From Planctomycetia bacterium (GTDB lineage Bacteria; Planctomycetota; Planctomycetia; Pirellulales; UBA1268), in assembly GCA_021414115.1 (NCBI GenBank), contig JAIOPD010000138.1, forward strand, positions 1-45,459: a stretch of DNA of 45,459 nucleotides, read 5' to 3'. The notes under the pieces were generated by a model that was not told the DNA's origin, did no database searches, and saw only the letters and a list, made by a program, of their open reading frames with translations. The position numbers were made by a program, and so were the translations under genes. This document shows positions 6,897 to 26,114 of this stretch, piece after piece (position 1 is the first letter of the stretch; every line of letters begins with the position of its first letter).

Positions 6897-6958
6897 CCCG
6901 CTCGGATCCCTGCCATCCGGAAAGCATGCCGCAGATCCTTGTGATCGAGGTTGTGAGA

Positions 6959-6985
6959 GGGGCTGCCCGTGCCCCGACCCTCGCA
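6959..6985. repeat. Collapsed remnant of the structured hairpin repeat
   Basis: It holds the full left arm GGGGCTGCCCGTGCCCC, then runs straight into GACCC, the sequence that normally follows the right arm. This is what deletion between the two CCCCG stretches of a complete element would leave. It lies 60 bases behind the antiporter stop codon, in an otherwise empty gap (6897-7159). Confidence 0.6.
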
Positions 6986-7081
6986 AGCCAATCCGGCGCC
7001 ACCAAGAAACAACCCGTATACCCCGCGCTCGCGATTGGGGCTTCCCGATAGGGGAGCATGTCACCCCTGATGAACCACGGT

Positions 7082-7111
7082 TTGGGGGACCGCGTCGGCC
7101 GGGGGTACAAT
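7082..7111 (+). promoter_or_regulatory. Candidate rnr promoter
   Basis: TTGGGG (7082-7087), an 18-base spacer and TACAAT (7106-7111), about 48 bases before the chosen rnr start. Confidence 0.5.
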
Positions 7112-7159
7112 CGAACGTCGGTACCCACGCTCTCGAGACCGTCGCTCGCAGGATCCTTC

Positions 7160-9265: not shown

Positions 9266-9277
9266 TCAGTGCCGCAT

Positions 9278-9306
9278 CTGGCACCGCGACCAAGGCCTCC
9301 TACAAT
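9278..9306 (+). promoter_or_regulatory. Candidate gcvT promoter
   Basis: CTGGCA (9278-9283), a 17-base spacer and TACAAT (9301-9306). Transcription would begin near 9313, leaving a leader of about 18 bases that carries GAGGA. Confidence 0.5.
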
Positions 9307-9330
9307 GCCGCCCATCGCCCGCCCCGAGGA

Positions 9331-10509: not shown

Positions 10510-10554
10510 CCGTATCCGGTATCCTGCGATCGACCACCTCTGGAGGAGATTTCC

Positions 10555-10932
10555 ATGGCAGCCGACCTGAAGTTCGCGAAAACGCACGAGTGGATTCGCC
10601 CGGAGGCCGGTGGCCTCGCCACGGTCGGCATCTCGGCGTACGCGGTCGAGGCCCTTACCGACCTCGTCTTCATGCAGCTGCCGCCGGTCGGCAAGAAGGT
10701 GAAGGCGGGTGAGTCGATCGGTGAGATCGAAAGCGTGAAGGCGGTGAGCGACATGTATGCGCCGGTGTCGGGCGAGATCGTCGAGGTCAACGCCACGCTG
10801 CCGAACCAGCTCGAGACGTTGGGCAAGGATCCCTACGGCGCGGGCTGGATTGTCCGCATCAAGCCCGACGATCCAGCCGAGCTTGCGAACCTCCTCGACC
10901 GTCCGGCCTACGAGGCGCTCGTCAAGTCGTGA
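10555..10932 (+). CDS. gcvH: Glycine cleavage H protein
   Basis: A 125-residue lipoyl carrier that shuttles the aminomethyl arm between GcvP, GcvT and the dihydrolipoyl dehydrogenase. The lipoylation site lies in GEIESVKAVSDMYAPVSG, with Lys62 as acceptor. The N-terminal KFAKTHEWIR and C-terminal LLDRPAYEALV are family-typical. A strong GGAGGAG Shine-Dalgarno precedes the ATG, unusual for this window. Its stop overlaps the start of the lipoate-ligase gene. Confidence 0.96.
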   Translation: MAADLKFAKTHEWIRPEAGGLATVGISAYAVEALTDLVFMQLPPVGKKVKAGESIGEIESVKAVSDMYAPVSGEIVEVNATLPNQLETLGKDPYGAGWIVRIKPDDPAELANLLDRPAYEALVKS

Positions 10933-11720
10933 CCGCGGCCGTTCTGCCCGTCTGGTGGGATGACGCCGCCGACGGCCCCACGAACATGGCGGCGGACGAG
11001 CTGCTCGCCGACGAAGCAGCCCGGCACGGGGGCCTCGTGATCCGCATCTATTCCTGGTCGAAGCCGTCCGTGTCGCTCGGCGCCTTTCAGCCGTTGGCGG
11101 AAGCCGACGCCTGTGCCGCGATCGCGGGTCTGCCGCTCGTCCGCCGGCCGAGTGGAGGCGGGGCCATCGTGCACGGCACCGATCTCACCTACGCCGCCGC
11201 CGTGCCGAAGACCCACCCATGGGGAGCCACGCCACAGGCCCTCTATGACGCGATGCACACGGCCATGGTGGCGGTTCTGGCCGCGAACGGCATGCCGGCC
11301 CGCCTGCACCAGGCCGCGGCGACCGATCCCCCCGCGGATGCTTTTCTGTGCTTCGCAAGGCGATCGGCCGGGGACCTGGTCGCACCGTGGGCCGGCGGGC
11401 ACGCAGCCGTCGGCGACCCGAAGATCATGGGCAGCGCGCAGCGGCGGCTCGGCACCACCGTGCTCCAGCATGGCAGCCTGCTCCTGGCGGCGAATCGTGC
11501 GGTGGGCGAGGAGGCGCGACTCCCTGGGCTGGCGGAACTCCTCGGTCGCGATGACGCCTGGGAGCCCCGCCAAATCGCGGCACCCTGGCTCGATGCGATC
11601 GCTCGGACCGTGGGGGCCGCGATCGACCACCAGCCCGGAGCGCTCTGCCGCGGCCGTGAATCCACGATCGACGCCCACGCCCGACGGTTCCGCGACCGGC
11701 AGTGGACCGCCCGTCGGTGA
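10929..11720 (+). CDS. Lipoate-protein ligase / octanoyltransferase family protein
   Basis: A 263-residue LplA/LipM-like enzyme expected to attach octanoate or lipoate to GcvH and other E2 lipoyl domains. Evidence: VRRPSGGGAIVHGTDLTYA (about residues 70-88), the Arg-x-x-Gly-Gly-Gly substrate loop, and GDPKIMGSAQRR (about 162-173), with the conserved lysine that binds the acyl-adenylate or lipoyl group. The GTG start overlaps the gcvH stop codon (GTGA), so it is probably translated together with its likely substrate. Whether it ligates free lipoate or transfers octanoyl groups cannot be settled from sequence. Confidence 0.85.
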   Translation: MTAAVLPVWWDDAADGPTNMAADELLADEAARHGGLVIRIYSWSKPSVSLGAFQPLAEADACAAIAGLPLVRRPSGGGAIVHGTDLTYAAAVPKTHPWGATPQALYDAMHTAMVAVLAANGMPARLHQAAATDPPADAFLCFARRSAGDLVAPWAGGHAAVGDPKIMGSAQRRLGTTVLQHGSLLLAANRAVGEEARLPGLAELLGRDDAWEPRQIAAPWLDAIARTVGAAIDHQPGALCRGRESTIDAHARRFRDRQWTARR

Positions 11721-11757
11721 CCAGGCGCCGGCCGTGACGGCCCGAGTCAATCGCCAC

Positions 11758-11786
11758 TTGATATCATGTCGGAAGGCTTCTACCGT
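11758..11786 (+). promoter_or_regulatory. Candidate promoter of the FHA gene
   Basis: TTGATA (11758-11763), a 17-base spacer and TACCGT (11781-11786), giving a leader of about 50 bases before the ATG at 11843. Confidence 0.4.
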
Positions 11787-11842
11787 GAATCCGATTCGGC
11801 TCTGATTCGTGGTTCGCGAAGCCGCCGTTCACCGGGCATTCC

Positions 11843-12541
11843 ATGATCGCCAAACTGATCGTCTCCTCGGGAAAAAGTGCCGGCCGCAGCATTGCCATCA
11901 AGCGCAACACACTGCTCATCGGCCGCGCCGAGCAGTGCGACGTCCGCCCTCTCAGCGAGGAGGTGAGCCGCCGGCACTGTTCCGTTACCGTCGGCCCCAC
12001 GGAGGTCTGGGTCGAGGATCTGGGCAGCCGCAACGGCACGTTCGTGAACGGCAAGAAGATCACCGAACGGACCAAGGTCGCCGACGGCGACATGATCCGT
12101 GTCGGATCGCTCGAGTTGAAGGTGTTGTGCACACTGGCCGCCCCCGCCAAGTCCGGCTCCGAAGACGACGTTTCTCGGTGGCTGATGCCAGACGAAAACG
12201 CGGCGGGCCTGTCCGACACCACGCGCTCATTGCCCCGCGGCACTCCCGACGCATCGACGGCCGACGCCGATGCGAGCAACATCCACGCGGATGCCGGCCG
12301 GCAGGCCGCGGCCGACTCGACCCTCGAGGGGTCGTTCGTCTCGGGGATCGGCTCGACTCCGGCCGTGGGCAGTGGTGGTGCCAGCGTGTCCGATCGGGCC
12401 ACGGGTTCGGTCGTGCTCGACGCCCTCAAGGCAGCCAACTCGAAGCCGGGCCTCCTGCCTCAGGGCACCAAGAAGCCGAGCGCCGACTCCTCCCGCGACG
12501 CCGCCGCCGAAGCGCTCAAGAAGTTCTTCGAGAAGAAGTAG
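11843..12541 (+). CDS. FHA-domain protein
   Basis: A 232-residue soluble protein with an N-terminal forkhead-associated domain (about 1-98): [21 protein letters not shown] followed by HCSV and [14 protein letters not shown]. These include the Gly-Arg, Ser-x-x-His and Asn-Gly-Thr positions that read phosphothreonine peptides. The rest is low-complexity and Ala/Ser/Asp-rich, probably disordered, ending in a Lys-rich helix ([10 protein letters not shown]). It is likely an adaptor in Ser/Thr kinase signalling, which planctomycetes use heavily. No kinase gene adjoins it, so its partner is unknown. Confidence 0.85.
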
Positions 12542-12782
12542 GGCTCCATCCTGCGTGGCTCGATTGTGTCCGACGCTCGGGCAGCCCCGATCGCGAGCGA
12601 CGGGGAGACGGGTGGCTCGTGCCGGTCGTAGCGGTCGTGTGGGCCTCGGGGTTTGCCCAAGCGGATTTTTTTCGCTGACCGGCACGTCCTCCGCGACCGT
12701 TGCCGGTCATGCTTCCGTCAGACCTTTGCAGCGCATCGCCGCGAACGTCAGCCGACCCCGTCGCTCCCCGGAGAATGAACCC
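12542..12782. other. Intergenic region with degenerate copy of the short GC repeat
   Basis: No gene is seen. GCGAGCGACGGGGAGACGGG at about 12592-12611 is nearly the reverse complement of CCCGTCTTCCCGTCGCTCGC in the tandem repeat at 41212-41380, and GGGCAGCCCCGA just before it echoes the arm of the hairpin repeat. A run of seven T follows at 12666 without a good stem. Confidence 0.45.
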
Positions 12783-13037
12783 ATGACCGTCGCCGCCGTG
12801 AAGTCGCCCCGCAGCAGCGCCCGCAACAAGCCTTCGGAGTCGCATGCCGCCGTGCGGCACAACCGCCGTCGGATGATCGATCCCTCCACCTGCGAACGCG
12901 ATTACCAGCCCGAAGAACTCGAGTTCATGCAGGCTCTCGACCGCTACAAGCGGACCAGCGGCCGGATGTTTCCGACGTGCAGCGAAGTCCTCGAAATCGT
13001 CCGGTCGCTCGGCTATCAGCGGGCCACCGCGGAGTGA
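12783..13037 (+). CDS. Small conserved-looking hypothetical protein
   Basis: An 84-residue basic protein with a disordered Lys/Ser/Arg-rich N-terminus (about 1-30) and a helical C-terminus: [20 protein letters not shown], then [17 protein letters not shown]. The C-terminal part resembles a short winged-helix-like or regulator fragment, but no family could be assigned. ATG 12783 is preceded by GGAGAA at good spacing. It is a candidate DNA- or RNA-binding regulator by charge only. Confidence 0.65.
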
Positions 13038-13149
13038 GGGCCGGCAAAATCGGCAATCCGGGTCGACCTTGCCCCGGGCAGCCCGCCCGCATTACGGTTC
13101 AGGCCTCGTCTCCGGCCAGTCAGCCGCCGGGGGATCGTGGAGTCTCGTC

Positions 13150-13911
13150 GTGCGGCATCCTTCCCTCATCGATTCCGGTGCGCCAAGAACCGGCCGCATC
13201 ATCGCGGCCATGGCCTGGCTCGTGGCGGCCGCGTGCGCGGGCTGCGGAGGCATGGCGAAGACTGACAATGCGGAGGGCGTGAAGCTCTACCAGCAGGGCA
13301 ACTACCTCGGCGCGGTCAACTCATTCCAGCAGGCTCTCGCCAAGCAGCCCGGTAATCCCGACTGCTTTTACAATCTCGGGGCGACCTACCACCAACAGGC
13401 AAAACTCTTCGGCCGATCCGCCGACATGCAGACGGCCGAGCAGTATTACCACCTCTGCCTGGCGCGAAACCCCAACCACGAGGCCTGCCAACGGGCGCTC
13501 GCCGTTCTCCTCGTCGAGGAGAACCGTCGCGACGATGCGGTCGCCCAGTTGAACACCTGGGCCCAAAGCCAGCCCGCCAACCCCGATCCCCACATCGAGC
13601 TTGCTCGACTGGCGGAAGAACACGGCGACGTCCGTGAAGCAGAAAACCAACTGATCGACGCGCTCGCCATCGACCCCAACAACCCACGGGCATTGGTGGC
13701 GCTCGGCAGCCTCCGGGAGACCTCGGGCGACGCCTCCCAGGCGCTGGCCAACTACGGCCGGGCACTCGCGATCGACCCGCAGCAGCCGGCCGTCGCGGCG
13801 AAGGTGGCAAGCCTCCAGGCGACGCAGGCCGGGGCCTACCGAACCGCCGCCCTCCCCCCGCCCGTGGTCGTCGCCCCAGCGCCGGCACCGCCCGCGAATG
13901 CGGCCCGTTGA
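13150..13911 (+). CDS. TPR-repeat lipoprotein
   Basis: A 253-residue envelope protein. From GTG 13150 (GGAG Shine-Dalgarno 8 bases upstream) it starts with a positively charged region, a hydrophobic stretch AAMAWLVAAAC, and Cys residues suited to lipid attachment. Tetratricopeptide units follow: GVKLYQQGNYLGAVNSFQQ, then NPDCFYNLGATYHQQAKLF, LARNPNHEACQRAL, and two more up to AIDPQQPAVAAKVASL. The C-terminus is Pro/Ala-rich. TPR lipoproteins usually scaffold envelope complexes; the partner is unknown. A start at 13210 would remove the basic region, so I prefer 13150. Confidence 0.8.
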   Translation: MRHPSLIDSGAPRTGRIIAAMAWLVAAACAGCGGMAKTDNAEGVKLYQQGNYLGAVNSFQQALAKQPGNPDCFYNLGATYHQQAKLFGRSADMQTAEQYYHLCLARNPNHEACQRALAVLLVEENRRDDAVAQLNTWAQSQPANPDPHIELARLAEEHGDVREAENQLIDALAIDPNNPRALVALGSLRETSGDASQALANYGRALAIDPQQPAVAAKVASLQATQAGAYRTAALPPPVVVAPAPAPPANAAR

Positions 13912-13936
13912 CCCTCCTCGCAGCGACTCCTATTCT
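13908..13936 (+). promoter_or_regulatory. serC-serA promoter candidate
   Basis: TTGACC (13908-13913), a 17-base spacer and TATTCT (13931-13936), a good housekeeping-type match that overlaps the stop codon of the upstream TPR gene. It predicts a start near 13943 and a leader containing AAGGA. Confidence 0.6.
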
Positions 13937-13960
13937 GCCCCGTGAATCCAAGGATTTCGG

Positions 13961-15067
13961 GTGCATGCCATGACGGATCGCGTTTTCAACTTCTCCCCGG
14001 GCCCGGCCGTTTTGCCGCTCGAGGTTCTCGAACAGGCCCGGGACGAGATGCTCTCTCTTCCCTCGGTCGGCATGTCGGTGCTGGAGATCAGCCACCGCAG
14101 CCCGGCGTTCGATCGGATTCTCGAGGAGACGCTCCAGCGACTCCGCGGGCTGCTCGGCATCGGCGACTCCCACGAGATCGTCTTCGTGCAGGGGGGCGCG
14201 AGCCTGCAGTTTTCGATGGTTCCGATGAACCTGCTCAGGGGTCAGCAGGCGGCCGCCGATTACATCATCACAGGCACATGGGGCGCGACGGGTGCCAAGG
14301 AAGCCCGCCGCGAAGGAAAGGTGCACGTGGCCTGGGACGGGGCCGCCACCAACCACGACCGGCTCCCGTCCGACCGCGAGGCCGCGCTCTCCGACACCCC
14401 GGCCTACGTTCACATCACGAGCAACGAGACGATCCAGGGCGTGCAGTGGAAGCACGATCCTGACGTCGGGCCCGCCCCGCTTGTCTGCGACTGCTCGAGC
14501 GATTTTCTGTCGCGGCCGATCGACGTGTCGCGCTACGGGCTGATCTATGCGTGCGCCCAAAAGAACGCGGGCATCGCGGGAGTCACGGCCGTGATCATCC
14601 GCAAGGACCTGCTCGAGCGTTCGCATGACGATCTGCCGACCATGCTCGACTATCGCACGTTCGTCAAGAACGGCTCCCGGCCGAACACGCCGCCCGTGTT
14701 TGCCATCTACATCCTCGGCCTCGTCTGCCGCTGGATCGAGGAGCGCATGGGAGGCCTCGCCGGCATGGCCCGCCACAATGCGACGAAGGCCAAGCTCCTC
14801 TACGACGTGCTCGACCGTTCCGGCGGCTTCTACACCGGCCACGCCCGGCCGGAATGCCGCTCCGACATGAACGTCACCTTTCGGGTGCCGGACGAGGCGG
14901 CAGAGAAGGCGTTCGTGGCAGGCGCCGCAAAGCGCGGCCTGATGGACCTCAAGGGACATCGCTCCGTGGGGGGCATCCGGGCGAGCATCTACAACGCCAT
15001 GCCCGTCGCGGGCGTCGAGGCCCTCCGCGACTTCATGATCGACTTCCAGCGGGAGCGGCAGGACTGA
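13961..15067 (+). CDS. serC: Phosphoserine aminotransferase
   Basis: A PLP enzyme of about 368 residues that converts 3-phosphohydroxypyruvate and glutamate to phosphoserine, the second step of serine synthesis (it can also serve PLP synthesis). Family signatures: VFNFSPGPAVLP, ISHRSPAFDRIL, VFVQGGASLQFSMVPMNLL, CDCSSDFLSRPIDV, and YACAQKNAGIAGVT with the PLP lysine. The C-terminus has LKGHRSVGGIRASIYNAMP. GTG 13961 has AAGGA 6 bases upstream; ATG 13970 would give the conventional MTDRVFNF start. serA follows 62 bases later. Confidence 0.95.
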   Translation: MHAMTDRVFNFSPGPAVLPLEVLEQARDEMLSLPSVGMSVLEISHRSPAFDRILEETLQRLRGLLGIGDSHEIVFVQGGASLQFSMVPMNLLRGQQAAADYIITGTWGATGAKEARREGKVHVAWDGAATNHDRLPSDREAALSDTPAYVHITSNETIQGVQWKHDPDVGPAPLVCDCSSDFLSRPIDVSRYGLIYACAQKNAGIAGVTAVIIRKDLLERSHDDLPTMLDYRTFVKNGSRPNTPPVFAIYILGLVCRWIEERMGGLAGMARHNATKAKLLYDVLDRSGGFYTGHARPECRSDMNVTFRVPDEAAEKAFVAGAAKRGLMDLKGHRSVGGIRASIYNAMPVAGVEALRDFMIDFQRERQD

Positions 15068-15129
15068 TGCCGCCCCGCGGCAGCGATTGGCCGTTGCCGC
15101 CCCATTCGCCCGACCCAGAGACACCCGAC

Positions 15130-16788
15130 ATGCCTTCGATCATCGTGCTCGACACGCTCAGTCCGGACGGCCTCTCCCTGCTCGAATCTGCGAAGCAGCA
15201 CGGCATCTCCTACGAGGTGCGGACGGGGCTCTCGGGTACGGCCCTCCGCGACGCCCTCGCGGCGCACGATGGCGCGATCTGCCGCAGCGGGGTCAAGATC
15301 ACCGCCGACTCGCTCGCCGGCAACCACCGGCTGAAGGCGATCGTGCGGGCCGGCGTCGGCACCGACAACATCGACAAGGAGGCGGCCACGCGGCAGGGCA
15401 TCGTGGTGATGAACACGCCCGCCGGCAACACCGTGAGCACGGCTGAGCATGCCTTCGCGCTGCTGCTGGCCGTCTCCCGCAACATTGCCGCCGCCGACGC
15501 GAGTCTGCGGGACCACAAGTGGGACCGCAACAAGTTCATGGGGGCCCAACTGGCGGGCAAGACGCTCGGAATCGTGGGCATGGGCCGCATCGGCCAGGCG
15601 GTGGCCGAACGGGCACGGGCCTTCGACATGCGGGTGATCGGTTTCGACCCATTCCTCTCCCCCGACCGGGCGGGCGAACTCGGCGTCGAACTCGTCGACA
15701 CCGTGCGGGGGATGCTGCCGCACGTCGACTATCTCACCGTCCACACGCCCCTCACCGACGAGACCCGGCATCTGATCGGGATGAAAGAACTCGACGTCCT
15801 CAAGCCCGGTGTGCGGCTCGTCAACTGTGCCCGCGGCGGGATCTACGACGAGCAGGCTCTGGTCGAAGGGCTCAAGCGGGGCGTGATCGGCGGCGTGGCG
15901 CTCGACGTGTTCGAGAAGGAACCCTGCACGGACAGCCCGCTGTTTGGCATGCCCGGAGTGGTCGTCACGCCGCACCTCGGCGCGAGCACCGAGGAGGCCC
16001 AGTCGCAGGTCGCCGTCGAGGGCGTGGGGCTGCTCGTCGATTTTCTGACGACCGGGGCTATCCGTCACGCCGTCAACTCCTCGGCGATCGATCCCGCCGC
16101 GCTCGAGGGTGTCAGGGGCTTCCTCGACCTCGCGTGGAGGCTCGGTATGCTCCTTGCCCAACTCGACGCCGGACAGCCGCGGTCGTGCTCCATCGCCTAT
16201 CGCGGCGAGGTCGCCGCCCGTAACACCAGGCTCGTAACCGCCGCATTTGCCGCGGGCCTGCTCGAAGGCGCCATCGAAGACGTCAACATCGTCAACGCCG
16301 AGATGCTCCTCCGTGAGCGGGGCATCGACCTCGTCGAGCAAAGCCGCACGGATCCCGGTGCGTTCAGCTCCGTGGTGGCGGTCGACCTCGTCGCGGGTGA
16401 CAGCGTGCACCGCGCGGCGGGCACACTCTTCGGCCACTCGATGCCGCGAATCGTGCAACTCGAGGGGCAGCGTCTCGAGGCCTACCTCGACGGGATCCTG
16501 CTGATCTTCACCCACCAGGACGTGCCGGGAATCATCGGCCGGGTGGGCACGGCATTCGGCCAGACGGGCATCAACATCGCCCAGATGACGGTGGGCAGGT
16601 CGACGCCTGGAGGCGATGCGATTGGCGTGCTGAATCTCGATCAGGAGCCCTCCGCCGAGGCGATCGCGGCCGTCGCCGCCTGTCCGGGTGTGCGTTCCGC
16701 CCGCGTCGTCAAGCTTCCTCCCGCCGGTCAGTTGCCGTCGTGGCTGGCTGCCGCATCGGCCTCGGCGCGGGCGGCACGCCGCGGCTGA
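15130..16788 (+). CDS. serA: D-3-phosphoglycerate dehydrogenase, long form with ACT domain
   Basis: A 552-residue NAD-dependent dehydrogenase for the first step of serine synthesis. The substrate domain has VRAGVGTDNID. The Rossmann motif GIVGMGRIGQAVAER is near residue 146. The catalytic Arg lies in NCARGGIYDE and the His in VTPHLGASTEEAQ. It is followed by the extra intervening (ASB) domain and a C-terminal ACT domain (about 455-540: DGILLIFTHQDVPGIIGRVG) that usually senses serine. The frame is open upstream into serC, but ATG 15130 matches the conserved MPSIIVLD start. Probably one operon with serC. Confidence 0.96.
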   Translation: MPSIIVLDTLSPDGLSLLESAKQHGISYEVRTGLSGTALRDALAAHDGAICRSGVKITADSLAGNHRLKAIVRAGVGTDNIDKEAATRQGIVVMNTPAGNTVSTAEHAFALLLAVSRNIAAADASLRDHKWDRNKFMGAQLAGKTLGIVGMGRIGQAVAERARAFDMRVIGFDPFLSPDRAGELGVELVDTVRGMLPHVDYLTVHTPLTDETRHLIGMKELDVLKPGVRLVNCARGGIYDEQALVEGLKRGVIGGVALDVFEKEPCTDSPLFGMPGVVVTPHLGASTEEAQSQVAVEGVGLLVDFLTTGAIRHAVNSSAIDPAALEGVRGFLDLAWRLGMLLAQLDAGQPRSCSIAYRGEVAARNTRLVTAAFAAGLLEGAIEDVNIVNAEMLLRERGIDLVEQSRTDPGAFSSVVAVDLVAGDSVHRAAGTLFGHSMPRIVQLEGQRLEAYLDGILLIFTHQDVPGIIGRVGTAFGQTGINIAQMTVGRSTPGGDAIGVLNLDQEPSAEAIAAVAACPGVRSARVVKLPPAGQLPSWLAAASASARAARRG

Positions 16789-16884: not shown

Positions 16885-17484
16885 GTGAGGGCGCCCCGTC
16901 GGGCCTTTGGATCGTCCCCGCACATGCCCCCTCGACCGGCGATCGGCGAACAGTTCAACCAGTGGGTGGCCGAGCATGTCACGGTCTTGTATCGAGTCGC
17001 CTACCGTTTGCTCGGCGACTCCCATGCTGCGGAAGACGTGCTCCAAGACACGTTCCGCTCGGCGTGGACGAGCCGACATCTCTATGACCGCACGCGGAGC
17101 GAGCGGGCCTGGCTGCTGGCGATTCTGCGTCGCCGCGTCGCCGACCATTGGCGAAGGCGACGGTCGCGCGAGGTCTCCTTCGCCGCAGATGCCGCCGAGC
17201 CCGCGGCCCCGAACGGGGCCGAGCCGTTCCGCGACGAACTCTCCGCTGCCATGCAGCGGGGGCTCGCCAAGCTGCCTACGGAGATCCGCGAAACCCTGCT
17301 GCTCGTCGTCGTGGGCGAACTCACCCACCAGGAAGCGGCGGATCTGCAGGGCATCCCGCTCGGTACCGTGCTTTCGCGGGTCAGCCGCGGACGAAGTCGG
17401 CTGCGGGACTTCCTCATCGAGGAGGGCCGTATTTCCGGTGACGACATGCGGGCGAAGACGGGGACACGCAACAGCCCAGACTGA
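16885..17484 (+). CDS. ECF-family RNA polymerase sigma factor
   Basis: A 199-residue sigma-70-type factor. Region 2 (about 20-85) contains VLYRVAYRLLGDSHAAEDVL and QDTFRSAW. A linker follows, then region 4 (about 120-170) with LPTEIRETLLLVVVGELTHQ and EAADLQGIPLGTVLSRVSRG, a clear helix-turn-helix. GTG 16885 is supported by GGAG 6 bases upstream; ATG 16924 is the alternative. Only 2 bases separate it from the following membrane VWA gene, the normal layout of an ECF factor and its anti-sigma regulator. Target promoters are unknown; the Exb cluster downstream is an obvious candidate. Confidence 0.92.
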   Translation: MRAPRRAFGSSPHMPPRPAIGEQFNQWVAEHVTVLYRVAYRLLGDSHAAEDVLQDTFRSAWTSRHLYDRTRSERAWLLAILRRRVADHWRRRRSREVSFAADAAEPAAPNGAEPFRDELSAAMQRGLAKLPTEIRETLLLVVVGELTHQEAADLQGIPLGTVLSRVSRGRSRLRDFLIEEGRISGDDMRAKTGTRNSPD

Positions 17485-17486
17485 CC

Positions 17487-19631
17487 ATGACTGAACAAGA
17501 CCGGCACATCGACGCGTATCTGCGAGACGTCTCCGCTCCGATGGATCTCGAGCGGAGAATGGCCGCGGACGCACTCTTCGCCGACGACACGCTCGACCGC
17601 GTGCTCGCCGAGGTCGCACTGCCGGCAGGCCTTGTGGACCGTCTCCACGCGAGGGTCGGCGGGCCGCTTCCGGCTGGTCGAAATGCGGGGTCGATCGATC
17701 TCGAAAGGATCGCGTCAGCCGCGGCCCGCGGAGGTGAGGCCGCAGACCGACATCGGCTCCGCTTCGGCCGCTGGGCGACCGCGATTGCCCGCGATGGTCT
17801 TGCGGTCGTCATGGCCCTGTCGGTTGCGTGGATCGTGTTCGCAGTCGGTGCCGAGCTGTCTCAGCGGCTCGCCTCGCTGCCTCGGGGCAAGTTCGCCGCG
17901 GCGGCCCCCCCGCGTGTCGTGACTCGAGGAGTGGCCGACGATGCTGCGGCAGCCCCGCAAGAACCGGTCGGCAAGGAACCTGCCGGGGTTGATCGGCGGC
18001 CGCGGCCCCGCCTTGCCCCCGCCAACGTGACGGGAAACAGGACTGGGGAACCAGCGGTCGCAACGCTCGCAGCCGGCCCCACGGCGGAGACTGCCGCGGA
18101 GCCGGCGTCCGCGTCACTGCCGCCGCAAGTCCGCGGCGCGGCCGTGGGCCTGACCGGCGAGCGGCCGGCCGACTCCTCCGCCATGCGGCTCTTGGAGCCT
18201 CCGCGCGAGGCGTGGCGGCTGGCTCCCCGCGTCAGGGGCTACGACCTCGCCTTCGAGATGGCGCACGGTGAGTCGCCCTTCGTCGATCCCGCCATGCCCG
18301 GGCTCTCCACCGACGTTCCTCCGCTCACGCTCCGCACTGACGCGTTTGACAGGCTCGCAGCGGGCGTCGGAAGGCCGTGGCATGCGGTCGACCGAAACCT
18401 CCGCATGGAGCACGTCCTCGCGGCGATCCCGGCAGCCACGGCACCCACGGGAATCGGGCCGTCGGGCGACGGCGACGTTCGAGTCGACATCCACTGCGTG
18501 CGGTCATTCCGCAGCGTCAGCGGCGTACCGAGCCGAATCGTGGAGGTAGCGGCGACGGCCGACCGGGACGGGAGCCCCATGGCGGCTTCGCCACTCGAGG
18601 CCACGATCGTTTTGGACCGGTCGGCGGGGGGCGATCTGGCGATCTGGCCGAGGATCTGCCGCGGTCTCGCCGCGGTCGCTGGGCAGATGAGCCCCAACGA
18701 TCGCGTCACCGTCATGGTATCAGGACCTGTTCCTCGGCTCGCCGTGAGACGGGGCGACGCGGTGACGATCGCTGCGTTGGCCGCAGAGCTCGAGCGGCTG
18801 CCGCCGATGGACGCGTCCGATATCGATGCAGCCATCCGGATGGCGTCGACCGAATCGACGACCACTGGCAGTCGGCTCGTGGTGGTGGCGCATCAAGAGA
18901 CGGCCGATCGCGGCCGAGATGTGGTCCGCGCCGCACTCGCAGGGTGGCATGAGGCGCAGGCCTCCGTCGGGGGTGAGCCGCTCGAGAACGATTCGCCCCG
19001 CCCCGGTCTGGCCCGCTTCGTCCTGGTCGATCCGACCACCTCCCCCGAGGAGCGGTCGCAGGGCCCCTCGTTCGGACGGACACCGGCCGATGCCACGGCG
19101 ATCCGTCGTGAACTCGTGCGTCAAGTCTTCGCGACCGAGACGCTCGTCGGTCGCCAGTGTCGCCTCACCGTGCGGTTTGATCCGCGGTTCGTGGCCGCCT
19201 ACCGCCTGATCGGCCATCGGCAGTCGGCGATGGAGTCGCTGGCCGTCGCCGCTCCCGCGGCGATCGATCTGCACGTCGGCGAGACGGTGCGGGCGGTCTA
19301 CGAAATCGTGCCCCGTGCCGCCACCGCCTCGGCCGGCGTGTCGGCGGAGCTCGATTGGCGTGGGACCGACGACGTGGCCCGAACGTCGCACGGCAGGCTC
19401 GCCGCCGCCGATCTCGACCATCCCGCGATGCTGCCCTCGCCGCACGGGTGCGAACTCCTACTCGCGGTGACGCTCGCTGAAACGGTGGGCGGCTCGGCAC
19501 ACGGCGATCCTCGGGCGAGAACCGCCGCGGCCGTACTCGTGCGGCGGTGGCGCGAACGCGGAGACATGCCCCCGTTCGGCGAACGGCTCGCCGCTGAACT
19601 CGAACGGTTCCCTGCCAGCCGACGGCCGTAG
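17487..19631 (+). CDS. YfbK-like VWA membrane protein, probable anti-sigma factor
   Basis: A 714-residue single-pass membrane protein. The short N-terminal cytoplasmic part (MTEQDRHIDAYLRDVSAPMD) sits where anti-sigma domains sit. A TM helix is at about 98-122 (GLAVVMALSVAWIVFAVGAEL) and a Pro/Ala-rich linker extends to about 215. Then come a YfbK N-terminal-like region (ESPFVDPAMPGLSTDVPPLT), a VWA-like domain (about 365-510) and a YfbK C-terminal-like domain (FDPRFVAAYRLIGHRQ ... VRAVYEIVPRA). The metal site appears degenerate: LDRSAGGD replaces the usual D-x-S-x-S. Partnership with the preceding sigma factor is inferred from adjacency. Confidence 0.75.
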   Translation: MTEQDRHIDAYLRDVSAPMDLERRMAADALFADDTLDRVLAEVALPAGLVDRLHARVGGPLPAGRNAGSIDLERIASAAARGGEAADRHRLRFGRWATAIARDGLAVVMALSVAWIVFAVGAELSQRLASLPRGKFAAAAPPRVVTRGVADDAAAAPQEPVGKEPAGVDRRPRPRLAPANVTGNRTGEPAVATLAAGPTAETAAEPASASLPPQVRGAAVGLTGERPADSSAMRLLEPPREAWRLAPRVRGYDLAFEMAHGESPFVDPAMPGLSTDVPPLTLRTDAFDRLAAGVGRPWHAVDRNLRMEHVLAAIPAATAPTGIGPSGDGDVRVDIHCVRSFRSVSGVPSRIVEVAATADRDGSPMAASPLEATIVLDRSAGGDLAIWPRICRGLAAVAGQMSPNDRVTVMVSGPVPRLAVRRGDAVTIAALAAELERLPPMDASDIDAAIRMASTESTTTGSRLVVVAHQETADRGRDVVRAALAGWHEAQASVGGEPLENDSPRPGLARFVLVDPTTSPEERSQGPSFGRTPADATAIRRELVRQVFATETLVGRQCRLTVRFDPRFVAAYRLIGHRQSAMESLAVAAPAAIDLHVGETVRAVYEIVPRAATASAGVSAELDWRGTDDVARTSHGRLAAADLDHPAMLPSPHGCELLLAVTLAETVGGSAHGDPRARTAAAVLVRRWRERGDMPPFGERLAAELERFPASRRP

Positions 19632-19672: not shown

Positions 19673-19701
19673 TTGACGGACCGTTGGCAGGGCCGCACAA
19701 T
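19673..19701 (+). promoter_or_regulatory. Strong promoter before the secreted-repeat/Exb genes
   Basis: TTGACG (19673-19678), a 17-base spacer and CACAAT (19696-19701), among the best sigma-70-like pairs in the window. Initiation near 19708 gives a pyrimidine-rich leader of about 48 bases with no Shine-Dalgarno sequence. It means the genes from 19756 can be expressed without the upstream sigma gene promoter. Confidence 0.6.
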
Positions 19702-19755: not shown

Positions 19756-22700
19756 ATGCGCACGGTCACCGGGGCAGCCGCCCTTGCCTGGCTTCTGTTG
19801 TCGGCCTTTGGTGCGGCTCGGGGCGAATCGGCCGCGGAGGCGACGACCCGGACGCTGCTCGAGAGGCTCGACGATCGGCAGATGCCCGACGTCATGCTGT
19901 GGGTGATCGAGCGGGCGGCAACCGACCCCGCCATCTCCGACGCGCTCAAGGGCGAACTGCCGTTCCTTCGCGCCACGGCATTGGTGGGCACCAGCCGTAC
20001 CGAGTCGGATACGGCCAAGCGGGCGGCGCTGCTCGACGAGGCCGAGAAGTCGATCGATGCGTTCCTCGCCACGGATCCCGCGGGCGACCTTGCGATCGCT
20101 GCCTACACGCAGAAGGGCAACCTCCTCATCGAACGCGGCCGCGGCAAGCTCGATCAGGCGAAACGTCCCGGCCAGGACGCGAAGAAACTCTCCGCCGAGG
20201 GGGCGGCTTTCTTCGACTCCGCAATCAAGAGCCTGAAGGGCACGGTAAAGCCCGACCAGAAGGAGATTGCCAAGGTCAACAACGCCGAGGACGCCGTGCT
20301 CAGGGCGCTCCGCGAGGTCGATGGCAAGATCGACGCGCTCAAGGCCGGAGGCAAGACCAAGGGCGATGGCCCGGCCAAACTCACGGCGACGCAGCAGAAG
20401 GAGGTCGATCGACTCGAGGAGCTTCAGACCCAGTACCGCGCCAAACTCCTCTCGACGCGGCTCATGACCGGAGCCGCTCTGTTCGAGAAATCCAAGGCAT
20501 TTTCGCCCGGATCGAAGGAAGCAACCGCGGCGATCGACGAATCGACGGCGGTCTTCAAGTCCTTGGCCGAGAAATACGGCACGACCGCGGCGGGCATCTT
20601 CGCCCGGTATTACTGGGGCCGCAACTCCGCGGCGATCGGCAAACATGAACTGGCGGCGGAGACCCTCGCCCCGGTCGTGGTCATCGACGACAAGTCGCCG
20701 CTGGCCGTCTCGCTCCGCGCCAAGGCGATCAACACATCGCTCGAATGCTGGCTGGCCATGGCGGCCGCGGAAAAGGATGCCGCGAAGGCCACGTCCATTT
20801 TGCAACGAGTCGACGACTCCATCCGGAAGTTTGTCCTCACGCCAGCTGAAAAACTTCCGGGGCGGAAGCTCGACGCCGAGTGGCTGGGGCTCAAGTACCG
20901 TGCCGCGACGGCGCTCGATGCGTGGGCCGGCAAGCTCGACGCGAAGGACAAACAAGCCAAGGGAATCCTGCAGCGGGATGCGAAGAAACTGGCCACCGAG
21001 GTCGCCACGGCTAATAAAGACTTCGCCAAGGAGGCCCGCGAACTCGCCGCCAAGTTGGGAAAGGACCTGCCCGAGGGGAGCGAGGAGAAGGACTTCGCCA
21101 CGCTGGTGGCCGATGCCCGCGTGTCGTTCGCCGCGATGCAGGAGAAGCAGGCCGAGGCGAAGAAGTTTGTGGCCGAGGGCAAGGCAGCCGAGGCTGAGGA
21201 AACTCTCAAGCGGGCCGGGGTCGACCGCGACGCCGCCGCCAAACTCTTCGAGGAGGCGATCAAGGCGGGGGAAGCCGAGAAGCAGCCCGACGAGGCGGCG
21301 ATCAACTCGGCCCGGTCGATGCTGACGTTCCTCTACTACGACGCCAAGCGATTTGCCGACGCGGCCACGCTCGGCGCGATGCTCACCGAACGATACCCCA
21401 ACGCGCTCGGCAGCCGGCAGGCGGCGCGGGTTGCCTTGGCAAGCCTCCAGCAGCTCGGCCTGCAGCCCGACCCGGCCGTGAGCAAGGATGCGAAGGCGAA
21501 GTTGGTCGCCGTCGCGACCATCATCGGGAAGACGTGGCCCGCCGAGGCCGAAGGGGCCGATGCTTTTTCGGTGCTCTTGAACGTCGCCCTCGAGTCACGG
21601 GACGCCGCGGCGATCGCGGCGCTGCTCGAAAAGTTTCCCGCCGATTCGCCGCGGCGAGCCGAATTCGCGATGCGGGCGGGAACGGGGCTGCGGCGGGAGG
21701 TGCAGGAAGCACGCAAGCTCGATGCGTCCGTGCGTCCCGACGAGACCATCATCAACGGATGGAACGCGGCCGCGAAGGCCGCCATTGACGAGGGGCTCGC
21801 GTCGCTGGAGCAGGCGGCGACCCTGCCGGCCGGCGTGGGGGGCAGGATCGCAGCGGGCGCGGCGCTGGCCCGCGTGCAGATGGCCCTCGACGACGGCGAC
21901 CGCGAAGCCGCGGGCCGCATTCTCGAACACAAGGTCTTCGGTCCGTGGACGCTGGTGCTCGGCGGTGATCCCGCGCTCGTCCAGGGCCAGTTCGCAGAAG
22001 GCACGCTCACGGTCGCTCTCCGACATTTCATCGAGACGGAGCAACTCGACAAGGCCCAAGCGGCGATGGACGCGCTGGAAAAGGCGGCCGGCCAGGGGGA
22101 AGAGGCCTCGGCGAAGCTGACGGGCATGTATCTCTCGATGGGCCGCGACCTCCAGGCCCAGCTCGAAAACCTCGGCGGCGGCGACAAGGGGAGCTCGCCC
22201 GAGGTGCGTGAGCGGGCGGGAAAGATCCTCGCCGGCTTTGAAAAGTTTCTTGACGGCGTTGCCAAGCGTGACAAGAAGATCTCTTCGCAGATCTGGGTCG
22301 CGACCACGTATTACACGCTCGGTTCCGGCAAGGGCACCGGCGCCGTGGTGCCGAAGTCGAAGGCGGAGCAATACCTCGACCGGGCCGCGGAGGCCTATGC
22401 CCGTCTGCTGTCCGCGAAGGACGATCCAGGTGCCGCGGCGAAGGACCGCGAGGACATCGGCCGCTTCGAGCCCTCGATTCGGCTGAAGATGGCGGGCATC
22501 TTCAAGGAGCGAGGCAAGTGGGATGCGGCACAGGAGCAGATCGACTGGATCCTTGCCGACACCAAGCGGCAGAACTCGCTCGAGATCCAGCTGCAGGCGG
22601 CTGAGTTGCTCGAGTTGGCCGGTCGTGCCGCCCTTGCCGCCGGAGATTCGGCCAAGGGCGATGCTCTTCTGCGGGAGGCGGCCGCCGGCCGCAAGGCGCC

Positions 22701-23082
22701 GCCAGTTGTGATCTGGGGCTGGGGCGGCATCGCCAACAAGCTCTCCCGCCAGGCCTTTTCCGCGGCCGACGAGAAGGCCATGAAGGCCCGCGAACAGTTC
22801 TTCGAGGCGCGGCTGCACGTCGCCGATACGCTCCTCACGCGGGCCAAGCTGGGGGGCGCAGCGGCCGACCGCGAGAAGCGGCTCGACACCGCAAAGACCG
22901 CGATCGCGATGACCCGAAAGCTCTACCCCGACCTGGGTGGCGAGGCGTTCCAAAAGCGGTTTGAGAAACTCCTCCGCGAGGTCCAGAAGGAGCAGGGCGC
23001 TGCCAATCCTGGTGGTTTTTCCCAGCTCGATCAGGAGGCAGGGGCCGCGGCACAGCCGGCTCCCGCGGGGGCCGCACCGTGA
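19756..23082 (+). CDS. Very large secreted helical-repeat (TPR-like) protein
   Basis: A 1108-residue exported protein. ATG 19756 gives MRTVTGAAALAWLLLSAFG, a classic signal peptide with cleavage near AARG-ES. The mature part is Lys/Ala/Glu/Asp-rich and almost wholly helical, with TPR-like stretches (AINSARSMLTFLYYDAKRFA, then DAATLGAMLTERYPNALGSRQ) and charged coiled-coil segments. It ends in a Gly/Ala/Pro-rich tail. No enzyme motif is visible. It heads a same-strand run with a second TPR protein, ExbB and two ExbDs, so it may be the periplasmic partner of that proton-driven complex. The frame is open 72 bases upstream, but the promoter lies there. Confidence 0.8.
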   Translation: MRTVTGAAALAWLLLSAFGAARGESAAEATTRTLLERLDDRQMPDVMLWVIERAATDPAISDALKGELPFLRATALVGTSRTESDTAKRAALLDEAEKSIDAFLATDPAGDLAIAAYTQKGNLLIERGRGKLDQAKRPGQDAKKLSAEGAAFFDSAIKSLKGTVKPDQKEIAKVNNAEDAVLRALREVDGKIDALKAGGKTKGDGPAKLTATQQKEVDRLEELQTQYRAKLLSTRLMTGAALFEKSKAFSPGSKEATAAIDESTAVFKSLAEKYGTTAAGIFARYYWGRNSAAIGKHELAAETLAPVVVIDDKSPLAVSLRAKAINTSLECWLAMAAAEKDAAKATSILQRVDDSIRKFVLTPAEKLPGRKLDAEWLGLKYRAATALDAWAGKLDAKDKQAKGILQRDAKKLATEVATANKDFAKEARELAAKLGKDLPEGSEEKDFATLVADARVSFAAMQEKQAEAKKFVAEGKAAEAEETLKRAGVDRDAAAKLFEEAIKAGEAEKQPDEAAINSARSMLTFLYYDAKRFADAATLGAMLTERYPNALGSRQAARVALASLQQLGLQPDPAVSKDAKAKLVAVATIIGKTWPAEAEGADAFSVLLNVALESRDAAAIAALLEKFPADSPRRAEFAMRAGTGLRREVQEARKLDASVRPDETIINGWNAAAKAAIDEGLASLEQAATLPAGVGGRIAAGAALARVQMALDDGDREAAGRILEHKVFGPWTLVLGGDPALVQGQFAEGTLTVALRHFIETEQLDKAQAAMDALEKAAGQGEEASAKLTGMYLSMGRDLQAQLENLGGGDKGSSPEVRERAGKILAGFEKFLDGVAKRDKKISSQIWVATTYYTLGSGKGTGAVVPKSKAEQYLDRAAEAYARLLSAKDDPGAAAKDREDIGRFEPSIRLKMAGIFKERGKWDAAQEQIDWILADTKRQNSLEIQLQAAELLELAGRAALAAGDSAKGDALLREAAAGRKAPPVVIWGWGGIANKLSRQAFSAADEKAMKAREQFFEARLHVADTLLTRAKLGGAAADREKRLDTAKTAIAMTRKLYPDLGGEAFQKRFEKLLREVQKEQGAANPGGFSQLDQEAGAAAQPAPAGAAP

Positions 23083-23123
23083 TGGCCTCCACCACCGAAA
23101 CATCCAGGGAGAATCGCTGAATA

Positions 23124-24218
23124 ATGAACGCGTTGCACGCTCGCAGATTCACCCGACCGGCGTGGGCAACCGTCGCGGCCGCGATCGCCTTGGGATCGAC
23201 TATTCCGACGCTGGCCCAGTCTCTCGACCGCGTGCGGCTCGTGACCGGAGTCGAACTCCAGGGCGAGGTCAGCGAAGCGTCGCCCAACGGGATCGATCTC
23301 GAGGGCAAAAACGGCCCGCAGAAGATCTCGATCGAGAGCATTCGCGAGGTCCGGTTCGCAAACGAACCCGAGGAGTTGCGGAGCGCCCGCACGCTGCTTC
23401 TCCGGAAGGATGGAGCAGGCGCTCTCGACGAACTTGCCAAGATCAAGTCCGCCGACCTCGAGGGGATCGAGAAGGAAATCCAGACCGAACTCGCGTTTGT
23501 TCGTGCTGCCGCGACCGGCCGCAAGGCGCTTGCCTCGGGCGAGGGCCTCGCTGCGGGGCAAAAGGCCGTCGCCGATTTCCTCACGACATACCCTCGCAGT
23601 CATCACTTCTATGACATGCAGGAACTGCTCGGTGACGTCTTCGCCCGACAGGGCAAGATCGCCGAGGCGGCGGCCGCGTATGGCACGCTCGACAAGGGCC
23701 CGCCTGCGATCGAGGTGCGGGCTGCCACGCTCAAGGCCGACCTCCTCTCCGGGCAGCAGAAATATCCCGAGGCGCTCCGGGAGTACGAGGCGGCGGCGAA
23801 GGTCGCGACCAAGATCGAAGGAGACTCCGGAAAGCGGGCCCGGCTCGGGGCCGACATGGGCCGGGCACGGTGCCTGACACGTCTCGGCAAGGCTGCAGAC
23901 GCCATCGCCGCGGCGCAGGGCATGCTGAAGGATGCCGATTCCGGCGACTCCGAGAACCTGGCCCGCCTCTACGCCCTACTCGGTGAAGCCCAGCGGACCC
24001 TCGGCGACAAGGACAGGGACGCAATCGTCTCGTTTCTCACCGTTGACATGGTCCACAACTCGGTGCCCGAGGAACACGCCCAGGCGCTGTTCAATCTCGT
24101 GGAACTCTGGGAGAAGACCAACAATCCGGAGCGTGCCCGCGAGGCCCGGCAGAATCTGGAAACAAGCTACCCTGATAGCCCGTGGACGAAAAAACTTCGG
24201 GCGGCGAAGGCCTCCTGA
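23124..24218 (+). CDS. Secreted TPR-repeat protein
   Basis: A 364-residue exported protein. The signal peptide is MNALHARRFTRPAWATVAAA followed by a hydrophobic core ending near TLAQS. A small beta region follows (RVRLVTGVELQGEVSEASPN), like the start of proteins that sense or bind a polymer. Helical TPR units run from about 85 to the end: AVADFLTTYPRSHHFYDMQE, AAAYGTLDKGPPAIEVRAAT and ALFNLVELWEKTNNPERARE. It lies 41 bases behind the giant repeat protein and 97 before exbB. It is probably a periplasmic subunit of the same system; this is inferred from context. Confidence 0.8.
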   Translation: MNALHARRFTRPAWATVAAAIALGSTIPTLAQSLDRVRLVTGVELQGEVSEASPNGIDLEGKNGPQKISIESIREVRFANEPEELRSARTLLLRKDGAGALDELAKIKSADLEGIEKEIQTELAFVRAAATGRKALASGEGLAAGQKAVADFLTTYPRSHHFYDMQELLGDVFARQGKIAEAAAAYGTLDKGPPAIEVRAATLKADLLSGQQKYPEALREYEAAAKVATKIEGDSGKRARLGADMGRARCLTRLGKAADAIAAAQGMLKDADSGDSENLARLYALLGEAQRTLGDKDRDAIVSFLTVDMVHNSVPEEHAQALFNLVELWEKTNNPERAREARQNLETSYPDSPWTKKLRAAKAS

Positions 24219-24315
24219 CGCCGGGCCAATGAGCCCCTTTCAGTGTCGGGTTGGGCGAGGGTACGCTGTCGGTAGGAAAAGGCTGAACGGAACCATACCT
24301 TTTGAGGAGATGATC

Positions 24316-25146
24316 ATGCTGGCTGGCGCGTGCGACGGTGGGCGGGAAGGAATCTGGTCGTGGCAGGCCGGAATGCTTCCCGCGCGAATTGGACGCATCC
24401 TCCTCGTCGCATGCCTGACGGCATCCTGGGGCGTCGCCTCCACGTGCGTGGTCCCATCCGTCGCCTCTGCCCAGGACGAGGAAGCCGTTGATGAAGGTGG
24501 CGACGCGGAACCCGAGGGCAAGAGCTATCTCACGTTTCTCGTCGAGGCGCTCGGTGTCAAATACGTGATCATCTTTCTGCTGCTCTCCTTCGGTCTCGTG
24601 GCCCTGCTCGTGATGTGCTTCATGCAGTTCCGCAAGGTGGTGATGATGCCTCCAGCGCTGGGCCAGCAGTTCGAACAGCATCTGGAAAACAAGGAGTTTC
24701 AGCAGGCCTACGAACTGGCCAAGAACGACGACTCGTACCTCGGCAAGGTGTTGTCCGCCGGCATGAGCAAGCTGCAGTCGGGCTATCCGGCGGCCGTCGA
24801 GGCGATGCAGGCCGCGGAGAGCGAGCAGGCCATGAACCTCGAGCACAAGATCAGCTTCGTGTCACTCGTCGGAGCCCTTTCGCCGATGTTCGGCCTGCTC
24901 GGCACGGTGGACGGGATGGTGGCCGCGTTCATGAAGATCGCCCAGAGCACGACGACCCCGAAACCGAACGAGCTCGCCACCGGTATCTCCCAGGCCCTCG
25001 TGACGACGCTCATCGGACTCTGGCTCGCCATTCCCGCCATCGCCTGCTACGCGTTGCTGAAGAACTGGCTGCAGCGGTTCAACATGGAAGTGGACGACGA
25101 ATCGATGCGCCTGATGTCGCGATTCCAAAACATGGGCAAGAAGTGA
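24316..25146 (+). CDS. exbB: ExbB/TolQ/MotA-family proton channel subunit
   Basis: A 276-residue inner-membrane protein. Start 24316 is set by GAGGAG 6 bases upstream. The N-terminus carries an additional hydrophobic export-like segment (IGRILLVACLTASWGVA) and an acidic linker. The three family helices follow at about 80-102 (VKYVIIFLLLSFGLVALLVM), about 180-205 (FVSLVGALSPMFGLLGTVDG) and about 227-248 (LVTTLIGLWLAIPAIACYAL). ExbB pentamers surround ExbD dimers and couple proton flow to periplasmic work. It is followed at 35 bases by exbD. No TonB or outer-membrane receptor gene lies in the window. Confidence 0.92.
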   Translation: MLAGACDGGREGIWSWQAGMLPARIGRILLVACLTASWGVASTCVVPSVASAQDEEAVDEGGDAEPEGKSYLTFLVEALGVKYVIIFLLLSFGLVALLVMCFMQFRKVVMMPPALGQQFEQHLENKEFQQAYELAKNDDSYLGKVLSAGMSKLQSGYPAAVEAMQAAESEQAMNLEHKISFVSLVGALSPMFGLLGTVDGMVAAFMKIAQSTTTPKPNELATGISQALVTTLIGLWLAIPAIACYALLKNWLQRFNMEVDDESMRLMSRFQNMGKK

Positions 25147-25181
25147 CGCCCCGAAACCGGTGAACGCGAGAACCGCACGCC

Positions 25182-25625
25182 ATGGCACGCAAGAAGAGCA
25201 GCGGTCCTGAACAGACCGACATCGACATGACGCCGATGATCGACGTCACTTTCCAGTTGATCACGTTTTTTGTCTTCACCCTCAACTTTTCCGAGGCCGT
25301 GACGGACGACCGGATCCAACTGCCCATGAGCCAGTTGGCAAAGCCTGCCGAAGGTCCGGCGACCAACCCGATCACGCTCCAGTTGATGACGAACGGAAAG
25401 GTGATCTACGCCGGCGAGCCCGTCGCGCTTCAGGACATCGGCGGATACCTCGAGAACGAGAAGCGGGTGATGATCTCGGCGAGCAAAGAACCGAGTTCGG
25501 CCACCGTGATCGTGCGGGCCGACGGCAGGTCCAATACCGGCGACGTTCAAGACCTGATCAAGGTCTGCCAGGAGAAGGGCTTCGAGCGGTTCGTCTTGCG
25601 AGCCGAATACGACGAGAGCCGATAA
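25182..25625 (+). CDS. exbD: ExbD/TolR-family protein, first copy
   Basis: A 147-residue single-pass membrane protein. The conserved start is DIDMTPMIDVTFQLITFFVF, with the aspartate in MIDV that carries protons, followed by a short periplasmic domain with NGKVIYAGEPV and ATVIVRADGRSNTGDVQDLI. It is the normal size for ExbD. It sits between exbB and a second, divergent exbD, so the stator may contain an ExbD heterodimer. Confidence 0.93.
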   Translation: MARKKSSGPEQTDIDMTPMIDVTFQLITFFVFTLNFSEAVTDDRIQLPMSQLAKPAEGPATNPITLQLMTNGKVIYAGEPVALQDIGGYLENEKRVMISASKEPSSATVIVRADGRSNTGDVQDLIKVCQEKGFERFVLRAEYDESR

Positions 25626-25637
25626 TCGGAGGGTGCC

Positions 25638-26114
25638 ATGGCCAAACATCGTGACGAACTGCCGAGCAAGATCGCCATCGACATGACGCCGATGATCGAC
25701 GTCGTGTTTCAGTTGATCACGTTCTTCATGCTCACCCTCAAGACGGTCATCAGCGAAGGTGATTTCGACATTCGCATGCCGCTCGGTGCCAGCGCCGGAG
25801 CCGCCCCCGAGGATCCGATCCCGCCGGTCCGCGTCAAGATGACGGCCGGCCCGTCGGGTGAACGGACGAGCATGACGATGAACGGTCAGCCGGTCGGCGA
25901 CTTCGACGATCTCCGCCGGCGGGTCATCGATCTCGTGGGCACCGGCCCCGGCTCCAACGCCGACAAGACGGAGGTCGAGCTCGATTGCGACCCGGCCTTG
26001 AAGTATGAAAACGTGATCCGCGCGGTCACGGCCGTCTCAGGCATGGTGCAGCCCGATGGCACGGTCGTGGAACTGATCAAGAAGATCAAGTTCGCTCCCC
26101 CGAAGAAGCGTTAG
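25638..26114 (+). CDS. exbD: ExbD/TolR-family protein, second copy
   Basis: A 158-residue ExbD with the same membrane motif (IDMTPMIDVVFQLITFFMLT) but a different periplasmic domain (GDFDIRMPLGASAGAAPEDP; TMNGQPVGDFDDLRRRVIDL) and a basic C-terminus FAPPKKR. It starts 12 bases after the first exbD, preceded by a GGAG-type site. Two non-identical ExbDs in one operon are common in planctomycetes and suggest specialised partners. Confidence 0.92.
   Translation: MAKHRDELPSKIAIDMTPMIDVVFQLITFFMLTLKTVISEGDFDIRMPLGASAGAAPEDPIPPVRVKMTAGPSGERTSMTMNGQPVGDFDDLRRRVIDLVGTGPGSNADKTEVELDCDPALKYENVIRAVTAVSGMVQPDGTVVELIKKIKFAPPKKR

Follow-up and report, generated by a model that had tools for sequence, protein, structure and literature searches.

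A set of five genes in a 4.35 Mb planctomycete draft genome (Planctomycetia bacterium, assembly GCA_021414115.1) encodes a large exported α-solenoid, a smaller exported tetratricopeptide repeat (TPR) protein, an ExbB/TolQ-type proton channel, and two different ExbD/TolR-type subunits (ExbD1 and ExbD2), and is conserved and old in Planctomycetota. The set lies at positions 19756–26114 of contig 118 (JAIOPD010000138.1), which was analysed over its full length of 45,459 nucleotides and is hereafter called the window. We are confident, short of certainty, that the five products form one complex; this proton-driven motor-scaffold complex probably serves an envelope machine containing PilM and a secretin. 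For the complex and this coupling taken jointly we see about an even chance, the coupling to the PilM-secretin parts being graded lower than the complex.

The genes are arranged on the forward strand in the order 1108-aa solenoid (19756–23082), 364-aa TPR protein (23124–24218), ExbB (24316–25146), ExbD1 (25182–25625), and ExbD2 (25638–26114, distinct from ExbD1). All five reading frames are open, as listed in a first-pass annotation made from the sequence, and the intergenic gaps of 41, 97, 35, and 12 nt, from the solenoid to ExbD2 in order, reproduce its range of 12 to 97 bases. The GC content at third codon positions is high in all five open reading frames (ORFs; 0.79–0.84). For ExbB, which carries a hydrophobic N-terminal extension, the start at 24316 was chosen for its spacing from the ribosome-binding site, six bases behind GAGGAG. 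By hydropathy, the hydrophobic N-terminal stretches of both repeat proteins fit signal peptides, which the annotation claimed for the 1108-aa protein. Its "one strong promoter" upstream of the solenoid gene did not hold up: the single sigma-70-like match (19673–19701, 9/12), against 0.7 expected in shuffled sequences, is at chance level, and this candidate was rejected.

ExbB matches PF01618 (E = 3.9e-26), and ExbD1 and ExbD2 both match PF02472 (E = 8.6e-20 and 1.6e-14, respectively). Thr199, Thr232, and Thr233 of ExbB (numbered from 24310) are invariant in 27/27 sequences, and the membrane Asp (Asp21 in ExbD1) is invariant in all 36 ExbD1/ExbD2 sequences; we take these to be the functional residues of the motor. 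Judged by its domains and key residues, the window set is assigned to the ExbB-ExbD/TolQ-TolR proton motors. The window's genome contains three ExbBs. The second (L095:4257–8487, G000:C94) follows a 1020-aa TPR ORF and precedes an ExbD, forming a TPR-motor locus of a different type, and the third, a 495-aa ORF with an adjoining ExbD match (L094:7587–9500, G000:C58), lies on a long branch in the ExbB tree. In four loci (L182, L190, L195, and L197), more than two ExbD-like ORFs stand behind one ExbB.

For the two repeat proteins, single-chain AlphaFold2 models were built with alignments from the named loci. The 1108-aa protein is predicted to form a helical solenoid spanning roughly residues 26–1099 (mean predicted local distance difference test score (pLDDT), 90.3; predicted template modelling score, 0.57), with helices throughout and one β-hairpin at residues 979–986. 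No Pfam or NCBIfam family was found for the protein itself, and TPR_19 was matched by 23 of the 38 members of its alignment at E ≤ 0.1. The 364-aa protein matches Pfam TPR_16 (E = 9.1e-10), and its model combines a five-stranded β-barrel (residues 35–77) with a TPR solenoid (mean pLDDT, 93.6). By hydropathy, neither repeat protein has an internal membrane helix except for one weak stretch near residue 606 of the large solenoid, which the model places within one of its helices. Sequence and fold searches of the PDB with the repeat proteins returned TPR and other solenoids, the barrel being included only as part of the whole protein.

The conservation of the set was surveyed at successive levels of kinship around the window's genome (genus, family, order, class, and phylum). 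The solenoid is present in 59 of the 60 genomes of the order sample, the window's included, and by profile in 193/198 genomes of the class sample; in the phylum the profile matches 102/199 genomes, of which 90 lie outside the class, and there the match frequently covers just a portion of the solenoid. From the 59 order genomes with a match, 40 loci were selected (39 genomes, L018 being a second place in G041; fragmented genomes were omitted), and 20 loci, mostly the strongest, were selected from the 90 matching genomes outside the class. For both sets the solenoid was the sole selection criterion; in the synteny count, no ORF was counted as both solenoid and TPR gene, and loci L001–L013 were excluded. 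In the order, ExbB stands beside the solenoid in 36/40 loci, and 33/40 contain the full set of five. The four loci without an ExbB match comprise a paralogous fragment (L018), a contig end (L023), and two split arrangements (L029 and L030), and in three further loci a single ExbD is counted, with a contig end in two of them and an ORF overlap in the third. Outside the class, all five genes occur in 14 of the 20 loci, and ExbB adjoins the solenoid in 15. Of the six incomplete loci there, L180 and L186 (solenoid near contig end) have no ExbB match, L181 has no TPR gene at the expected position, and in L179, L191, and L195 no distinct solenoid match occupies its position. Among named loci picked by ExbB, a biased choice, all five genes were found in 44/60. 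By simple arithmetic (three ExbBs per 4.35 Mb), an ExbB would be expected near the solenoid by chance in less than 1% of cases.

At the class level the linkage differs by family. All five genes are together in 8 of the 20 class loci, with f22 (6/6) and further loci of the window's own order (2/3) linked and f21, f24, f25, and f26 unlinked, although in L075 (f25) a solenoid-type ORF precedes an ExbB-ExbD triad. ExbB was found elsewhere in all 20 split or unlinked genomes searched, mostly with two ExbDs in the fetched loci. In the ExbB trees, the class triads group together whether linked or split; the first of these trees was built without 11 close ExbBs, and the later one from a chosen subset of 72 rows. 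The conservation of the repeat genes beside exbBD supposed in the first-pass annotation is therefore borne out in the order and in the other classes, with the selection of loci noted above, but not throughout the class.

In the other-class loci, the set is accompanied by genes of pilus- and secretion-type channels. A secretin gene is present in 14/20 loci and a long PilM gene in 8/20, which is a new observation. These neighbours offer a more specific lead than the roles in cell shape, adhesion, or polymer uptake suggested in the first-pass annotation. In 13 loci secretin and solenoid share the strand, their ORF ends separated by −42 to 601 nt; PilM shares it with the solenoid in all eight loci that have one. 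Pfam Secretin was found in ten ORFs, and each of three ORFs tested for Pfam PilM_2 matched it (E = 1.3e-32 to 3.9e-39). Two secretin genes per cluster were observed in L159, L161, L190, L192, and L194; they flank the motor genes in four of these clusters and both precede them in L190. The window's genome has one secretin, one PilM, and five T2SSE-type ATPase matches on other contigs. In a PilM tree of 29 rows, a clade of 18 (Shimodaira–Hasegawa-like approximate likelihood ratio test support, 99) unites the eight PilMs linked to the set with an unlinked one from another class and with the long PilMs found in eight class genomes, the window's among them; the rows outside it are six short PilMs, three further long ones, and two PilMs of 464 and 503 aa. 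On this phylogeny, the PilM of the window's genome is identified as an ortholog of the linked long PilMs. The secretin tree agrees with the PilM tree. PilM and secretin are about 3 kb apart in class genome G037 and about 10 kb in G151. According to a report on Rhodopirellula baltica, high salt induces pilM, pilB, pilT, pilC, exbB, and exbD, the exb genes being identified by name only (PMC2754498).

A motor of this type raises the question of a transducer. The C-terminal domain of TonB (TonB_C, PF03544) was found in none of the 19 genomes of the genus, the window's included, and the TonB-dependent receptor domain (PF00593) was not found in the window's draft genome; each was matched in 3 of 14 control genomes. 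Thus, the earlier statement that TonB and receptor genes are absent extends from the window to the genome, whereas for Tol-Pal, TolB and Pal were given no genome-wide search. The curated cut-offs were not reached for TolQ (79.1 vs 221 bits), TolR (33.6 vs 127.3), or YbgF (33.9 vs 90.1). A TPR-tolQ-tolR-tolR arrangement linked to a von Willebrand factor A (vWA) gene, with the vWA protein as force transducer, is already in print for bacteria of the Planctomycetes-Verrucomicrobia-Chlamydiae (PVC) group (PMC12204202). The Ser and His of the membrane helix of this transducer (motif S..H) are invariant in 7/7 planctomycete sequences. In all six genomes tested outside the window's family, a separate locus (L232–L237) contains an S..H vWA gene, a TPR match, ExbB, and two ExbDs, with the motor genes of L232 on the opposite strand. 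In all four genomes tested from the window's family, the vWA match is without S..H in its hydrophobic stretch (in L230 a His is present, preceded by Trp) and without an ExbB match in its flanks (up to about 4 kb per side, one cut by a contig end). The separate vWA loci and the motif-less vWA of the window's family therefore make the published system look like a paralogue, and for the window's motor no arm is known. The sole vWA match in the window's genome, a 371-aa ORF with neither a nearby ExbB match nor the transmembrane motif, was rejected as transducer, and no linked vWA with an S..H helix was found in the 40 order loci. Most vWA-linked ExbBs form their own clade, those of L077, L079, and L081 lying outside it. 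Two of the vWA-TPR-ExbB-ExbD-ExbD loci (L232:4494–9232 and L234:4618–10000) also contain a solenoid-like ORF (E = 1.9e-17 and 4.2e-5, one match being weak), so that the vWA-linked and the window-type motors may be paralogues at the level of the entire cluster.

Altogether, the five products would constitute one proton-driven envelope complex in which ExbB acts as the proton channel and ExbD1 and ExbD2 are placed inside it, perhaps as a heterodimer. The periplasmic ends of the ExbDs would then drive, or be held by, the β-barrel/TPR protein and the large solenoid as a periplasmic scaffold. Because neither TonB nor a vWA gene beside ExbB was found in the window's genome, the force is probably passed on by the two ExbDs and the TPR scaffold. 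A trans-envelope channel would be the likely client, built from the long PilM, the secretin, and membrane proteins with a single pass, whose genes stand beside the set in other classes and elsewhere in the window's genome. Extension to a phylum-wide machine, in which an ExbB-ExbD1-ExbD2 rotary motor with two TPR solenoids and no TonB-like arm powers a secretin assembled by the long PilM, is proposed tentatively and remains the doubtful part.

Several observations weigh against this proposal. What we observe is the gene set, its conservation and linkage, the PilM orthology, the domain content, and folds predicted for single chains only; the complex itself, the heterodimer, the route of the force, and the coupling to the secretin are what we infer. 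ExbB is not near the solenoid in 12 of the 20 class loci, L067 among these being cut by a contig end. The view of the first-pass annotation that an Exb motor and two exported repeat proteins make up one uncharacterised envelope machine is partly supported, gaining from linkage over deep divergence and losing from the missing linkage in much of the class. Among 11 genomes from other families of the order, 7 have TonB_C, so that the lack of TonB is not general. Neither PilM nor secretin was near the solenoid in any of 105 class loci (L014–L073 and L099–L152), and hence coupling in the class rests on co-occurrence. The secretin tree is biased because its profile was seeded with a linked secretin. 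The PilM and secretin neighbours could also be an old cluster of different functions, and P. limnophila is viable after loss of three pilQ-like genes (PMC11958385), which may be of another secretin type.

The same anatomy is known from the Agl-Glt core of Myxococcus xanthus, whose components (as given in Table 1 of PMC3169522) include AglR (TolQ), AglQ and AglS (TolR), and the TPR proteins GltD (1191 aa) and GltE (471 aa), both with a signal peptide. By analogy, the window set might be a counterpart of this core, a TolQ with two TolRs driving a periplasmic TPR complex that shifts surface material in gliding, polymer transport, or surface assembly. We regard this as unlikely, since the Agl-Glt core includes GltG, a TonB-like transducer, and TonB_C is missing from the window's genome. 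In addition, among the NCBIfam gliding models, GltJ was matched in 2/38 solenoid members (among 25 of 45 families listed), and GltE was not among the 25 of 62 families listed for the TPR protein. The same paper describes the machinery as lacking conservation in other phyla, of which Bacteroidetes and Cyanobacteria are named, and its authors call the core a complex of unknown function in gammaproteobacteria. The near-universal presence of the solenoid in the class is housekeeping-like and would also suit a substitute for Tol-Pal that orders the outer membrane during growth and budding, in which the TPR protein would be the CpoB/YbgF-like component; the YbgF model was matched by 47/47 TPR members at E ≤ 1 (best, 2.2e-16). 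This model is not specific, because it also matches 26 of the 38 large-solenoid members, and with the TolQ, TolR, and YbgF scores far under their cut-offs and no TonB_C in the genus, such a substitute seems quite unlikely.

It is very improbable that the window set is the known PVC system with its vWA gene relocated. The published arrangement, the single vWA match of the window's genome, and the occurrence of such a vWA near a related triad in L077, L079, and L081 (family f21) speak for it, whereas the separate second locus in 6/6 genomes outside the family, the motif-less vWA without a neighbouring ExbB match in 4/4 genomes of the window's family, and the distinct clade of most vWA-linked ExbBs (these three loci excepted) speak against it. 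That the five genes are neighbours through history only, the repeat proteins having separate jobs, would account for the families in which solenoid and motor are unlinked; we give this almost no credence, as the linkage persists across class boundaries, where the profile matches the solenoid in parts only, and is far above the chance expectation calculated above. The preferred reading thus remains a motor-scaffold complex that probably serves the PilM-secretin machine.

Directly upstream of the set and on the same strand (16885–19631) are a gene for an extracytoplasmic function (ECF)-type sigma factor (16885–17484; PF04542, E = 1.9e-15), a possible regulator with variable linkage, and, starting 2 nt after it, a gene for a 714-aa protein with a YfbK-type C-terminus (17487–19631; PF12034, E = 3.3e-6). 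Both are present in 15 of the 40 order loci, and together they may form a sigma/anti-sigma pair for the five-gene set with a vWA-type sensor. The 714-aa protein has one transmembrane helix near residue 104, without S..H. Its role as a TonB-like arm was considered and set aside, as inspection by eye found S..H neither in 14 helices from 15 homologues nor in the window's own. Farther upstream (5193–16788), the neighbours are ordinary, namely a Na/H antiporter with TrkA_N, an RNB exoribonuclease, GcvT, a lipoate ligase-type protein, a class V aminotransferase, and a phosphoglycerate dehydrogenase.

According to published work, the periplasm of planctomycetes is large, most of their division proceeds without FtsZ, and uptake of whole polymers is assumed for them. 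The motor-scaffold set is a prime candidate for powering outer-membrane work in these bacteria, because the solenoid is nearly universal in the class and the set recurs in other classes. Standing beside genes for pilus-type secretion channels in relatives, it points to an unstudied cell-envelope machine, and if the proposal is correct, a pilus- or secretion-type channel would be run by proton flow. The set thereby makes it possible to ask whether a proton motor can power a channel of the secretin type and how two different ExbDs function as a pair. In the literature accessible to our search, we recognised no description of the combined set, of the 1108-aa family, or of its secretin/PilM link, and the main texts of essential-gene papers on Planctopirus and Verrucomicrobium contain none of the terms searched for these genes.

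Compared with known systems, the set shares an ExbB/ExbD-type motor with Tol-Pal and Ton, but the transducer and receptor of these systems were not found here, and the motor and YbgF models scored below their cut-offs. With the PVC vWA system it has in common a TPR gene, a tolQ-like gene, and two different tolR-like genes, with ExbBs of the same broad family; it differs in that the vWA system occupies a separate locus in the six genomes tested outside the window's family and no S..H vWA was linked to the set in the 40 order loci. The likeness to Agl-Glt, a TolQ-type channel with two different TolR-type subunits and a pair of exported TPR proteins, one of them large (about 1200 aa) and the other smaller, is one of anatomy only, and the TonB-like GltG sets that system apart. 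A flagellar periplasmic scaffold of Campylobacter (9hmf_K) was matched by the models of both repeat proteins, as a generic solenoid match among many and with low TM-scores for the 1108-aa protein (0.16 and 0.22). The alignment complex of type IV pili and type II secretion (PilM, PilN, PilO, and secretin) is not known to include an ExbB-ExbD motor as standard. In other classes, PilM_2 and secretin genes are clustered with the set, whereas the PilMs concerned are long (ORFs of 536–904 aa) and form a clade apart from the short PilMs of 349–376 aa.

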